Assembly (NCBI GenBank): GCA_003154775.1
Contig: PMES01000029.1
Location: 1 to 46,675 of the forward strand
Source: Acidobacteriota bacterium
Lineage (GTDB): Bacteria; Acidobacteriota; Terriglobia; Acidiferrales; UBA7541
Length of the DNA stretch: 46,675 bases
Reading direction: 5' to 3'
Below, piece after piece: positions 13,989-18,923 of this stretch (positions within the stretch are counted from its first letter, which is position 1; every line of letters starts with the position of its first letter). A program made the translations under genes and the position numbers. The notes under the pieces were generated by a model. It made no database searches and was not told where the DNA came from. It worked only from the letters and a program-made list of their open reading frames with translations.

Positions 13989-16364
13989 TCACAGCGGGGT
14001 GCGCCGCAGGCGAAGGGCGTTGGTGATGACGGACACCGAGCTGAAGCTCATGGCGGCGCTGGCGATCATCGGACTTAATAGCCAGTGAAAGAGGGGGTAA
14101 AAAACTCCCCCCGCCACCGGGATTCCCAATGCGTTGTAGAGGAACGCGAAGGCGAGGTTTTGTTTGATGTTGCGCAGGGTGGCGCGGGAAAGACGCCGGA
14201 CGCGGACGATCCCGCGAAGATCCCCCTTCACGAGGGTGATGCCCGAGCTTTCGATGGCTATGTCGGTACCCGTACCCATAGCAATGCCTACGTGGGCGGC
14301 GGCGAGGGCGAGAGCATCGTTGATACCGTCCCCAGCCATGGCAACTATGCGGCCCTCAGTTCGGAGTTTCTTCACCAGTTCGCTTTTTTGGTGGGGCAAC
14401 ACTTCGGCGTGAAATTCATCGATCTCGAGTTGTCTAGCCACTTTTTGCGCCGCGGACTGGCGGTCTCCCGTAAGCATGACGATGCGCAGGCCTTCTTTAC
14501 GAAGCGCTTGGAGCGCTTCAACGGTGGTGGGTTTCATGCGATCGGCAAGCAGGAGAACGGCCATGACGTTCCCATCCACGGCACACAAAACTGGGGTCAC
14601 CGAAGCATCGCCGGTCGCCAGAACGGCAGTTTTCATCGGGGGCGGTTGGGTGATGCCCCGCTCCTCCAAAAAGCGCACGGTGCCAATAACCAGGGTCTTG
14701 CCGAGGACACGCCCGCGGACGCCACCGCCGGGGCTCGCTTGGAAATCGGTGACGGGAGCGAGAGGTAATTTCCGCTCATCTGCGGCCCGGACGATGGCGC
14801 GTGCCAAGGGATGTTCGCTGGCCCGCTCGACGCTGGCCGCAAGCGAGAGCAAGGCATTTTCCGGGAGTACCGCGCCTTCAAACATCTGCAGACGCGCCAG
14901 ATACGGCTTGCCTTCGGTGAGTGTGCCGGTCTTGTCCAGCACCAGTGTGTCTACGCGGGCCAGGGTTTCCAGCGCTTGGGCATCCCTAACGAGGACGCCG
15001 GCAGAAGCGCCGCGGCCCACGGCAACCATGATGGACATAGGCGTGGCCAGCCCCAACGCGCAAGGACACGCAATGATCAGAACGGAGACGGCAGCGATTA
15101 GCGCGTGAGCAAAGCGCGGCTCCGGGCCGAACAATCCCCAGCCGGAGAAGGCAACGATCGCCGCGGCCACAACCGCGGGAACGAAGTACCCAGCGACTTT
15201 ATCCGCAATACGCTGCATGGGAGCGCGGCTGCGCTGAGCTTCGCTCACAAGCTTCACGATCTGCGCCAGGAGGGTTTCGCTGCCCACTCGTTCGGCAAGC
15301 ATGACGAAACTTCCGCTGGCATTGAGTGTGCCTCCGGTGACTTTGTCGCCCGCAGCCTTTTCGGCGGGGAGGGGTTCGCCGGTTACCATCGATTCGTCAA
15401 CGGCGCTGGCGCCTTCGCGAATCGTGCCGTCAACGGGGATGCGTTCACCCGGTCTTACGCGGAGCAAGTCGCCATGCTTGACCTGCTCCAGGGGCACATC
15501 TTGCTCTGTTCCTCCGGATACGAGGTGCGCGGTTCGCGGCGCAAGGTGCAGGAGTGCGCGGATGGCATCGCTGGTGCGCCGGCGGGCCCGCAGTTCGAGA
15601 ACCTGGCCGAGCAGAACCAGGGTGGTGATGACGGCAGCGGCTTCAAAGTAGACATCCACACTGCCGTGCATGCCGCGGAACGACGCCGGGAAGAATTGAG
15701 GGAACAGCGTTGCGGCGAGACTGTAGAGATAAGCAGCACCGGTGCCGAGGCCAATCAAGGTAAACATGTTGGGACTGCGATTGCCGAGCGAAGCCCAGAA
15801 GCGCTGGAAGAAGGGCCAGCCGCACCAGAGCATCACCGGCGAGGCCAGGAGAAGCTCCACTGCATTTTTGGTGGCCGGATCGAGATGGAGGCCCAAGGCT
15901 TCGCCAAACATGGAGAGAACGAGTAGGGGAAGCGAAAGCGCCGCGCTAACCCAGAGGCGCCTGCGCATGGAGTCGTACTCGGGATCGCGCTGCTCTTCTC
16001 CCGGTACGGTGGGGACAAAATCCATGGGTTCGAGCGCCATGCCACACTTGGGGCAGGTTCCGGGCCCGATCTGCACAATTTCGGGATCCATCGAACAAGT
16101 GTAGCGGACCGGCGCGGCAGCAGGCGCGACAACAAGCGAGGAAGGTTTGCTTTCCATGCCCGCGGCACCCGGAGCCGCCAGAAATCGCTCCGGTTCTTTT
16201 TGGAAGCGTTCCGCGCATCTGGTGGAGCAGAAATAGTAGGTTTTGCCTTTGTGTTCGTACTTGCCGGCGGGCTTCCGCGGATCGACCATCATTCCGCAGA
16301 CGGGATCCTTCTCCTTCGGCGAAGGAGGCAGGATGGGCAAGGCCGGGATATGTGGACTCGACAT
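13989..16364 (-). CDS. copA: Copper-translocating P1B-type ATPase
   Basis: The 791-residue protein starts with a YHS domain (DPVCGMMV, residues 20-27; Cys46 and Cys50) and a second metal-binding module (CSMDPEI and CPKCGM, residues 90-109). A P1B core follows with TGEP (328-331), the membrane CPC (433-435), phosphorylated Asp477 in DKTGT and GDGIND (678-683). A C-terminal [14 protein letters not shown] segment is typical of Cu+ exporters. No N-terminal HMA domain is present. One oddity is [10 protein letters not shown], with Leu685 in place of the usual Pro. The start has a GAGG site. It exports copper from the cytoplasm; a small HMA-like protein is encoded divergently 90 bases away. Confidence 0.95.
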
Positions 16365-16442
16365 GAAACCTCGTAGCGACAGCTTACTATGTTTGATGTT
16401 TGGAGGTTACATGCGTTGCTGGGCCTGGCCGGTGGAGGCTGG

Positions 16443-16448
16443 TATAAT
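16443..16448 (+). promoter_or_regulatory. Consensus -10 element just before the HMA-like gene
   Basis: A perfect TATAAT ends six bases before the ATG at 16455, which places transcription start at or next to the start codon. No well-spaced -35 hexamer is obvious (TTGCTG lies 21 bases upstream). This would make the message leaderless. Confidence 0.45.
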
Positions 16449-16454
16449 CCGGCC

Positions 16455-16676
16455 ATGACACTCGTGGAGATCACGTACGAATTGCATTCACCGCTGAGCC
16501 TGGAGCAATTGAGCCGCCTGGGCGAATTCGCCAATACCTATGGATTGCGGCGCTTCCGCGTGGACGATCAGAATAAGCAAGTGTCGTTTGAATATGACGC
16601 TTCGCGGTTGCGGGAAACGCAGGTGGCGCATGTGCTCGGTCAAGCCGGCATCGCGGTCACTCGCAAAGTGAATTAG
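16455..16676 (+). CDS. Small HMA-like (ferredoxin-fold) protein without CxxC
   Basis: From the ATG at 16455 the product has 73 residues. Its second half (FRVDDQNKQVSFEYDASRLR then ETQVAHVLGQAGIAV) has the beta-alpha-beta pattern of heavy-metal-associated domains, but there is no metal-binding CxxC and no cysteine at all. It is divergent from a copper ATPase that itself lacks an HMA domain, suggesting a structural or regulatory partner rather than a chaperone; that is inference. No ribosome site is visible, but a perfect TATAAT sits six bases upstream, suggesting a leaderless message. An upstream in-frame ATG (16389) is considered less likely. Confidence 0.7.
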   Translation: MTLVEITYELHSPLSLEQLSRLGEFANTYGLRRFRVDDQNKQVSFEYDASRLRETQVAHVLGQAGIAVTRKVN

Positions 16677-16798
16677 GCCGCAAAGAACCAAACGCCGAAG
16701 AACCCCTGGAGTGCCTATCAGGACAGTGGCATAAGCCTTAGCATTTGAGTTTGGGGAGTGCCGCGCACGCCGGATGAGTAGAGATCTGCCTTGGAAGG

Positions 16799-16842
16799 CA
16801 CAAAAAAATGGGGCCCCCGCTTGGGACCAGGAGCCCCGAAGG
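16799..16842 (-). terminator. Rho-independent terminator
   Basis: On the minus strand GGGGCTCCTGG...GGGGGCCCC forms a strong GC-rich stem followed by a run of seven T (positions 16802-16808 as A on the plus strand). It ends the structured RNA just upstream on that strand. Confidence 0.75.
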
Positions 16843-16998
16843 CGCGTTTCAGATGCCGATGTCGTTTTCACACCGGCGCGTGGGGTCATCCATCCTAGCT
16901 TCCCTCTCAGAGGCAGGTGGGAACGATCCGCAAGAACCCGCAAGCAAGCCCCTTCCCCCTCGCTTGCAGTCCTTACGTCTCGTCTACCGAAACGCGCC
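16841..16998 (-). ncRNA. Structured non-coding RNA, possibly 6S RNA
   Basis: The two ends of this 158-base unit are perfectly complementary over 10 bp (GGCGCGTTTC at its 5' end, GAAACGCGCC at its 3' end). A Rho-independent terminator follows immediately on the same strand. The interior has GCAAGC/GCTTGC and CCTC/GAGG stems and a TTCCCACCT stretch; no open reading frame fits. Length, closing stem and own terminator suit 6S RNA (ssrS), which binds RNA polymerase in stationary phase, but the central bubble was not modelled and no 6S consensus was verified. It does not match SRP RNA, tmRNA or RNase P landmarks. Confidence 0.5.
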
Positions 16999-17097
16999 CA
17001 CGGCCAAAGTTAATGCACGAAGGGAACCAACCCGTTTGGGCCACCAAAAACACCTAAAACATTAAAAACAGATAATTTATAAATAGGAGGAATGGAC

Positions 17098-17166
17098 ATG
17101 AGTGAACCAAAACTGTCCAGGAGAGTCAAAACGGAACGGACACGATCGAGTCGCGACACCGCGTGA
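17098..17166 (+). CDS. Possible 22-residue basic micro-protein
   Basis: A strong GGAGG site (17086-17090) is placed seven bases before an ATG that opens a 22-codon frame, MSEPKLSRRVKTERTRSSRD plus two residues. The peptide is rich in Arg, Lys and Ser with no membrane segment. The upstream region is AT-rich (GATAATTTATAAAT), unlike its surroundings, and could be a promoter. A weak CCAG/CTGG hairpin followed by six T lies downstream near 17190-17216. No homologue is recognised; it may be a real small protein or a chance frame. Confidence 0.35.
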   Translation: MSEPKLSRRVKTERTRSSRDTA

Positions 17167-17270
17167 ACTGGCCTCAAGCTGTTCTAGTACGTCCAGAACC
17201 TGGGTAACAATTTTTTCGGGAAGCGGGGGCTATCGGTTTTTCAAGTGTTCCAGGCTGAAACTGTGCCTGC

Positions 17271-17594
17271 ATGAGTTCTTCCTCACTTCATCGCCTTCGC
17301 CGGCTCGCCACTTGGGTATTCTTAGAGCTCATCCTGGCGGCTGCGGTGATGGCCTTTTCCGTTTGGGCCGATACTTCCGGGCGCGTCAAGGAAACGAAAC
17401 CTGGCGGCTGCTATTGTGGCTGCGCGATGTCCAAGACATCGGCGGGCTGCTCGAAGATGTGCGAATTGCCGAAATATGCTTCGCGGTGGTGGGCGGTAAC
17501 TTGCGCGAAGCCCCAAGCGAATTCTCCGGCGGAGACCCCGGGCGCCGGACCGCGCCTGCCGAGACCCGCGCGCTCAGAGCGGGCTGCGAACTAG
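17271..17594 (+). CDS. Small exported Cys-rich protein, unknown function
   Basis: The 107-residue product has a signal peptide (Arg-rich start, hydrophobic residues about 13-32 ending SVWA). A compact Cys-rich segment follows with Cys at 47, 49, 51, 60, 64 and 78 (CYCGC, then AGCSKMC, then WWAVTC), and a Pro/Arg-rich tail completes it. The regular cysteine spacing is a hallmark of a folded, disulfide- or metal-bound mini-domain. I do not recognise a named family. It ends four bases before the convergent GT28 gene. No good ribosome site precedes the ATG, so the exact start is uncertain, but the signal peptide supports it. Confidence 0.65.
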   Translation: MSSSSLHRLRRLATWVFLELILAAAVMAFSVWADTSGRVKETKPGGCYCGCAMSKTSAGCSKMCELPKYASRWWAVTCAKPQANSPAETPGAGPRLPRPARSERAAN

Positions 17595-17598
17595 TTTT

Positions 17599-18768
17599 TC
17601 ACGGATTCTGGGTCAGCGCCACTGCCGGCTCGCCCAAGAGCTTGGCGAGAATCTCAGGAATCTCAAAGACCGCTTGATTGTTCAGGGCAGCGACGTTGCG
17701 GTGGAACTCCGCAAGCGTGGCAGGCTCCAGAAGCTGCTTCACGCCCGGCACGATTTCGTCAAAACTGGAAAGAACAATCCCCACGCGTTTTTCAATTACC
17801 CACTCGGTGTTGTAACGCTCCTGAGGCATAGTCCAGGAGTTGCATTCCAGAATGACGGGCAAACGGCGAACCATGGCTTCGGCAACACTGCCCGGTCCGG
17901 GCTTGCCAACCAGAAAATCCGCGGCGCGCATCAGGCGATGCACTTCCTTCGTGAAACCCAGAACATGCAGCGGCAGATGCCAGGAGCGCGAACGGAATCT
18001 TTCGGCGAGCTTGTCGTTGCGGCCGCAGATGACGATGAGCTGAACGGGAACGCGCGCGGCGTCCAGCCGCTCCACGATGTCATACATCACTTTGGAGCCG
18101 AAACCCCCGAAGAGAAGAATGCCCGTCGGCAGATTGGGTTGTAATCCAAGCTCACGGCGAAGAGCGACAGGGTCCGTGTTATCGGGGAGGTAGAAATCGG
18201 GGCGCAGGATCATCCCGGAAGTGGCGAAGATTTGGGATTTCTTCTTGCCCATCGTCCGCGCCTGCTCCACGGCGCGCTCCGAGCCGCAAATGACGTGTTG
18301 CTGCTCCAGCGGCTCGATCCAGAAACGCGGTGGAAAATCCGCCAAGTCCGTGATCAGCGTGACAAATGGCCGCTCGGGATACACGGAGGACCAGGCTTCT
18401 GCGATCTGTCGATTGAAGTGGGGAATGACCGAAACCAGCAGGTCGGCAGGGTGCTCGCGAAAGTACCTGGATAGCAGGCGCACCATCGGCCGGTGAAAGA
18501 GTCGGATGGTGGCCTGGAGAACACGCAAGAGCTGCGTGGCGCCCAGCGTCCAGCCGTTGCGCAGGAGGATGTTGTACTGCTCCTGGATGCGGATGCCGGT
18601 GAGCTTGCGGAGAACGTCCAACTGATCGGTGAGATCCTGGAACTGAATCAGTTCGATTTGCCAAGGGCGCTGCTGCTGCGCGGCAACGGTTTGCAGGGCG
18701 ACAGCAGCATTGCGATGGCCACCCCCGCCATCATGAAAGAAGACGTGGATTTTTTTCATTGGGGCCAT
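17599..18768 (-). CDS. GT28 glycosyltransferase, MGDG-synthase-like
   Basis: Starting at ATG 18768 (18759 is equally possible) the product has about 389 residues. It shows the N-terminal MGDG-synthase signature IHVFFHDGGGGHRNAA, the helical DQLDVLRKLTGIRIQEQYN region, and a C-terminal nucleotide-sugar site with LLFGGFGS and VGKPGPGSVAEAMVRRLPVI. The family transfers a sugar to diacylglycerol at the membrane surface; MurG and bacterial processive glucosyltransferases are relatives. The adjacent PAP2 phosphatase could supply diacylglycerol. The longer frame to 18846 lacks homology. Donor and product are not determined by sequence. Confidence 0.85.
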   Translation of the reverse strand: MAPMKKIHVFFHDGGGGHRNAAVALQTVAAQQQRPWQIELIQFQDLTDQLDVLRKLTGIRIQEQYNILLRNGWTLGATQLLRVLQATIRLFHRPMVRLLSRYFREHPADLLVSVIPHFNRQIAEAWSSVYPERPFVTLITDLADFPPRFWIEPLEQQHVICGSERAVEQARTMGKKKSQIFATSGMILRPDFYLPDNTDPVALRRELGLQPNLPTGILLFGGFGSKVMYDIVERLDAARVPVQLIVICGRNDKLAERFRSRSWHLPLHVLGFTKEVHRLMRAADFLVGKPGPGSVAEAMVRRLPVILECNSWTMPQERYNTEWVIEKRVGIVLSSFDEIVPGVKQLLEPATLAEFHRNVAALNNQAVFEIPEILAKLLGEPAVALTQNP

Positions 18769-18923
18769 TGTTGCACGGTCAGGGGAGGCCCGTACAAGAG
18801 CACTCACAATGCCATGTGGAAAACTCAAAAACCCGTTTGTGCTCAATGAGTTCCGTGCATTCTTTCACGGTCAATTCGCGCTGCCTTTATGCGCTGTTCA
18901 TATCCTGTCTCTACCCTTGAAAC

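Follow-up and report, generated by a model that had tools for sequence, protein, structure and literature searches.

Sigma-54-dependent small RNAs of the GlmY type are about 200 nt long, a size similar to that of an RNA predicted at the locus described here. Two acidobacterial motifs, Acido-1 and Acido-Lenti-1, have Rfam numbers according to Weinberg et al. 2010 (PMC2864571), and PMC13068155 lists the PCYCGC protein (PF13798) as a lipoprotein that has seven conserved cysteines and no known function. The window analysed here, the whole 46,675-nt stretch of DNA taken from contig C35 of a 4.63 Mb acidobacterial genome, encodes a six-cysteine protein, termed CYS, and, divergent from it, a predicted structured RNA.

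The CYS coding sequence (17271..17594, plus strand) specifies 107 aa, with the ATG at 17271 and the stop codon ending at 17594; re-reading of the sequence and its translation gave the frame, the coordinates and the cysteine spacing as the original prediction had them. By inspection, the N-terminus consists of a basic n-region followed by a long hydrophobic stretch and a signal-peptidase-I-like site, VWA/DTSG (predicted cleavage at the slash). Residues 1-33 (17271..17369, plus strand) are predicted to form the signal peptide, on the basis of this inspection, a helix spanning residues 3-33 in the structural model and a near-invariant Ala33. The export claimed earlier is supported at the level of inspection, and CYS is probably an exported protein. 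The cysteine core delimited by the protein alignment, residues 47-78 (17409..17504, plus strand), follows the pattern CxCxC-x8-C-x3-C-x13-C, a spacing of 1-1-8-3-13 in the window's protein. The whole protein has four tryptophans, of which a WW pair lies within the core, and the Pro/Arg-rich tail is present as well. An AlphaFold model built from 35 sequences had a mean pLDDT of 59.3, with a confident N-terminal helix (residues 3-33) and an unreliable core, most of it below 50.

Homologues that keep the cysteines, on which the original prediction had made the reality of the frame depend, were found in three genera: all six cysteines are invariant in 35/35 aligned proteins, the window's included, and their spacing is identical in 33 of these. 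Arg72 and Glu103 are likewise invariant, Ala33 and Lys80 nearly so, while identity to the window's protein drops as low as 23%. The alignment leaves out L029, which is truncated where its contig ends, and L030, an additional weak match that contains a stop (both among 30 loci). CYS was found in 29/36 congeneric genomes, the best match in each being free of stops; the first sample also included 25 more distant genomes, all of which lacked it. When 399 genomes of the class were searched with a profile, 40 matches were obtained at E ≤ 0.01, comprising 29 in the genus, seven in two other genera of its family (two in g28 and five in g29, E 3e-15 to 3e-18) and four that were weak, at E 1e-3 to 6e-3, two of these having stops. 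Across 396 genomes of the phylum, a strong match was found in the window's own genome, and two others were weak and partial (E 8e-5 with three stops; E 1e-3). The matches outside the family, which range from E 8e-5 to 6e-3 and in some cases contain stops, were taken as chance.

The earlier statement that no named family could be recognised was borne out by searches of Pfam, NCBIfam and PDB. The window's protein had no NCBIfam match, and a PDB profile search with CYS returned nothing at E ≤ 10. Among 28 members searched against Pfam, the best result was E = 0.038 (one member, to PCYCGC) and the others gave none; four members from g28 and g29 reached at best E = 0.048, and 0/4 matched PCYCGC. 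Three members searched against PHROGs gave chance-level matches only (best E 0.047). CYS constitutes a genuine new family, lineage-specific and of a general kind already known, so far seen in one group of soil bacteria.

The DNA upstream of CYS has a strongly conserved layout: GTTCyAGrACCCnGGTAACA is followed after some 20 nt by CTATCGGTTTT and, after roughly 15-20 nt more, by CAGAAT or a variant. In the window, alignment placed a candidate operator, AGAACCTGGGTAACA, at 17195..17209 and the near-invariant element CTATCGGTTTT at 17230..17240, and a -10-like box, GAAACT, lies just before the ATG at 17257..17262 (all plus strand). Such a box begins 11-14 nt 5′ of the ATG in 31/35 sequences and in 5% of shuffled ones, a count favoured both by box patterns written after the genus boxes had been seen and by start codons picked from in-frame candidates. 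A Shine-Dalgarno-like motif was present in 2/35 (shuffled 7%), whereas 34/35 contained the block CTATCGG or a variant of it; these shuffles, like those for the RNA promoter below, preserve base composition only. Of the seven CYS genes in g28 and g29, six have the last box and six the CTATCGG block. The CYS transcript is probably leaderless and made from its own conserved promoter. A scan of 16300-17700 found no sigma-70 consensus promoter; the -35 element of CYS, if any, is therefore not of that type.

Other ideas about this upstream DNA were rejected. For exact matches, a regulon was excluded by the single occurrence in the genome of both CTATCGGTTTT and the two-part pattern, and since CTATCGGTTTT occurs once in the genome, control seems specific to CYS. 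That the stretch acts as an RNA leader or a riboswitch was rejected on a consensus energy of -0.11 kcal/mol and the lack of any covarying pair, and a coding explanation of the conservation on spacing indels that, by inspection, shift frames.

Divergent from CYS, folding and covariation analyses predicted a structured non-coding RNA of about 204 nt (16799..17002, minus strand). The minus strand folded 4.5 standard deviations better than its shuffles, and the plus strand 0.9. In an alignment of 33 sequences from four genera, compensatory changes on both sides were seen at 35/61 consensus pairs. Left out were L122 and, from a set of 36 sequences, the diverged or truncated L036, L119 and L121. Pairing was possible in 95.5% of alignment cells, against 87.7% after shuffling and 39-48% with partners slid, and 186 cells had double changes, against 57.7 shuffled and 18-34 slid. 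One 11-pair hairpin is near-invariant and without covariation evidence, and the RNA carries a conserved GGGGAAGGGG loop. A terminator scan and covariation both pointed to an intrinsic terminator of ten pairs and a T run at 16810..16837 (minus strand), followed by ATTTTTTTG. The interval is well supported as a new family of structured RNA, predicted to be transcribed.

The putative promoter of the RNA, TGGTTCCCTTCGTGC (17015..17029, minus strand), contains a -24/-12 element that we take to match the sigma-54 consensus. With patterns chosen after the alignment had been seen, TGG[CTG]N7[GT]TGC occurred upstream of the RNA in 42/51 loci (shuffled 0.6%), GG-N9-TGC in 51/51, including the nine that lack the fuller pattern (shuffled 6.7%), and GG-N10-GC in 51/51 (shuffled 29%); L169 and L173 were dropped from this count as repeats of genomes already included. 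Sigma-54 is encoded in 59/61 genomes searched, the window's own included. The promoter fits the sigma-54 type. Boxes like TTCAATTCGGAAC, two in some genomes, lie upstream of it at about 17030-17140 and in the same place in relatives, and might be sites for an enhancer-binding activator of sigma-54. They are also present in some genomes that lack CYS, such as L106 and L111.

A covariance model found the RNA in 81/399 genomes of the class at E ≤ 0.01. Within the family, 79/89 sampled genomes from 13 genera had a match, 72 of them at E <1e-14 and seven at 3e-9 to 6e-4; one match, at E 1.4e-6, came from a different family within the order and has the same promoter pattern, and one at E 0.009 was taken as chance. 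No match other than in the window's own genome was found among 396 genomes across the phylum at E ≤ 0.001. Both large scans ran stricter filters, which lose weak matches. Most genomes have one strong match and a few a second, mostly weak one; the second match had E 0.006 in the window's own genome and was strong in G151 and G235. Within the genus the RNA was present in 30/36 genomes, and a single genome from a different genus had it too; its position relative to neighbouring genes varies.

Comparison with known RNAs produced no assignment. The RNA had no match in Rfam 15 at gathering scores, where it also matched neither Acido-1 nor Acido-Lenti-1, and at permissive settings the best overlap was a terminator-like match to BjrC68 (E 0.3), which is not credible. 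No published description of the RNA was found among the matches listed, which is no proof of absence. An identity with 6S RNA (RF00013), which has a similar length, was rejected: the model did not match here, and the genome's own 6S RNA lies on contig C145 (51 bits, cut-off 46.4). A CsrA sponge was rejected for the genus, where CsrA is encoded in 0/28 genomes; the count was 3/46 overall, in a sample that took in no other genera of the family.

The RNA lies near a P1B-type metal ATPase gene (13989..16364, minus strand), identified by domain search as CopA-like with YHS and heavy-metal-binding domains. A role as leader of this gene is disfavoured, as the RNA has its own terminator and the ATPase is on the opposite strand in 8/11 loci; it is on the RNA's own strand in the other 3/11 and in the window. 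Between the two, at 16455..16676 (plus strand), lies a gene for a small 73-aa protein without a Pfam match, a frequent neighbour that is often near the metal ATPase in two genera. Its layout matches that of CYS: a TATAAT box stands six bases ahead of the start codon. The gene on the other side, at 17599..18846 (minus strand), is the convergent GT28 gene that had been reported four bases from CYS, and its product matches Glyco_tran_28_C in Pfam above the cut-off (28.4 bits vs 22).

Gene neighbourhoods were compared in longer stretches from 29 of the remaining 35 CYS genomes, 22 in the genus and seven in the two other genera. An ATPase of the YHS/HMBD P1B type, these domains having been tested on the window's copy, lies within about 6 kb of CYS on the opposite strand in 26/29 genomes (the genus and g29). 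In the three exceptions (L048, L084 and L088) the gene or its neighbour is close to a contig end, and contig ends cut off both g28 loci (L084 and L088). A CsoR-like gene, presumably for a metal sensor, is present in 15/29 and absent from the window. The glycosyltransferase adjoins CYS in 18/22 genomes of the genus, one of the four misses being at a contig end, and in 0/7 loci of the two other genera; its lack of adjacency there disfavours it as a functional partner, and as a neighbour it is uninformative. In g29 (L085, L086, L087, L089 and L090), one or more genes that we take to be type-IV-pilus-like separate the metal ATPase locus from CYS, namely one for a PilT-like ATPase, with presumed PilB- and PilZ-like genes in some, and genes that we assume to be biotin-synthesis-like follow CYS.

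The ATPase neighbourhood is kept in a congener without CYS (L173), and an ATPase match was found near the RNA in 11/20 further loci from other genera, with no CYS match in the stretch read. The neighbourhood is older than CYS, and the proximity may reflect a gene order that was inherited. The idea that CYS and the RNA are obligately linked was rejected, since each occurs without the other within the genus. A strong RNA match is present without CYS in G005, G007, G009 and G010, and a weak one in G034, and CYS is present without an RNA match in G015, G017, G018 and G031. The two are separable, and joint action is not claimed.

What CYS itself is has several possible answers. Its small size, its lack of a family and its position near conserved non-coding DNA would suit a spurious open reading frame held open by an overlapping DNA constraint. 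Against this, dN/dS was 0.11-0.20 in seven of nine pairs (of the remaining two, one nearly identical pair with 10 changes gave 0.49 and dS was saturated in the other), the cysteines are constant across three genera, and the conserved DNA elements sit upstream of the frame, none inside it. We regard a spurious frame as scarcely credible; CYS is a real, conserved gene under purifying selection. A distant kinship with the PCYCGC proteins, and a function in common with them, would explain the CYCxC start and the six invariant cysteines present in both (19 PCYCGC sequences aligned), together with a single profile-profile comparison that gave 66% probability and E 5.6e-5 over 23 columns and the 1/28 members reaching PF13798 in Pfam. 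However, the spacing after CYCxC differs, the fourth cysteine following at x11 and then C-x2-C in PCYCGC and at x8 in CYS, and the GHxxxLxC and C-x2-C features that follow P-C-[YF]-C-x-C among 28 PCYCGC sequences (19 aligned) are missing from CYS. In addition, the window's genome already has a true PCYCGC protein elsewhere (G000:C102:989-1213), the sole place where a PF13798 search matches there. Membership was rejected on the Pfam results, the PF13798 match at that other locus and the profile-profile comparison, in which the match covers 23 columns, and even distant kinship with shared function is unlikely. PCYCGC proteins were found in 76/151 genomes sampled from the class.

The six invariant cysteines fit metal binding and disulfides alike, and the ATPase proximity leans to metal. 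Metal binding is favoured because of the CxCxC cluster and the neighbourhood, with a disulfide-locked protein nearly as likely. In the latter, CYS would be an exported mini-protein free of metal, its small stable core held by three disulfides, and would act in the envelope or as a secreted protein, as an inhibitor or as a structural or adhesive piece. The even number of invariant cysteines and the signal-peptide-like start seen on inspection suit this, as do the invariant Arg72, the nearly invariant Lys80 and the basic mature chain (K+R > D+E in 35/35), a basic chain being typical of disulfide-rich mini-proteins. A disulfide-locked protein would leave the metal-ATPase proximity unexplained, however, and C-x-C-x-C is strained for local disulfide pairing and commoner in metal sites; we give this reading somewhat less than an even chance. 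For the alternative, that CYS is an exported mini-protein whose cysteine cluster binds a soft metal beside the P1B-type ATPase, the evidence includes cysteines kept throughout sequences as little as 23% identical to the window's protein, purifying selection, the 26/29 and 15/29 neighbourhood counts and the 3-9 histidines in the mature part of 28/35 proteins, and the CYCxC core with further cysteines nearby resembles what we take to be thiolate metal sites. This is weighed down by a neighbourhood that predates CYS, by a promoter element that occurs once in the genome and so is not common to the ATPase, by the lack of histidine in the mature part of the window's protein and its nearest relative, by the even cysteine number, which in an exported protein fits three disulfides equally, and by the unreliable core model. 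The ATPase link supports a metal role weakly, and soft-metal binding is held as a tentative preference.

The CYS gene has a conserved promoter to itself, probably a leaderless one, and two upstream elements that are specific to it. In the metal-binding reading, the protein would be exported by the general secretory route, the signal peptide being removed after Ala33. The mature chain would fold round one compact six-cysteine cluster in the cell envelope, and CxCxC-x8-C-x3-C would most likely bind a soft metal, for which Cu(I) is the leading candidate. CYS might then buffer the metal or deliver it next to the neighbouring P1B-type ATPase. In a broader and improbable scenario, which we offer as a long shot, the region would be one control locus at which a near-family-wide sigma-54-dependent RNA governs metal or envelope homeostasis via the ATPase genes. 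Some genera would have gained in addition a metal trap, an exported six-cysteine protein whose gene is divergent from the RNA and has a separate, leaderless promoter.

CYS represents a strictly conserved and probably exported protein family without a name, from soil Acidobacteriota that are represented here mainly by metagenome-assembled genomes, and its small size would permit direct assays of bound metal or of disulfides. The RNA is the larger prize and would provide a direct handle on sigma-54 control in these bacteria. Its nearest kind are sigma-54-dependent small RNAs such as GlmY, which are likewise free-standing, with a sigma-54-type promoter and an intrinsic terminator; unlike them, it has no credible Rfam 15 match and is nearly restricted to one acidobacterial family. 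For CYS, the closest parallels are metallothioneins and exported copper-binding small proteins, with which it shares CxCxC clusters, small size and a metal-ATPase neighbourhood. It differs from these in lacking a Pfam or PDB sequence match, in having only six cysteines, in its probable export and in conserved non-cysteine residues that point to a fold.
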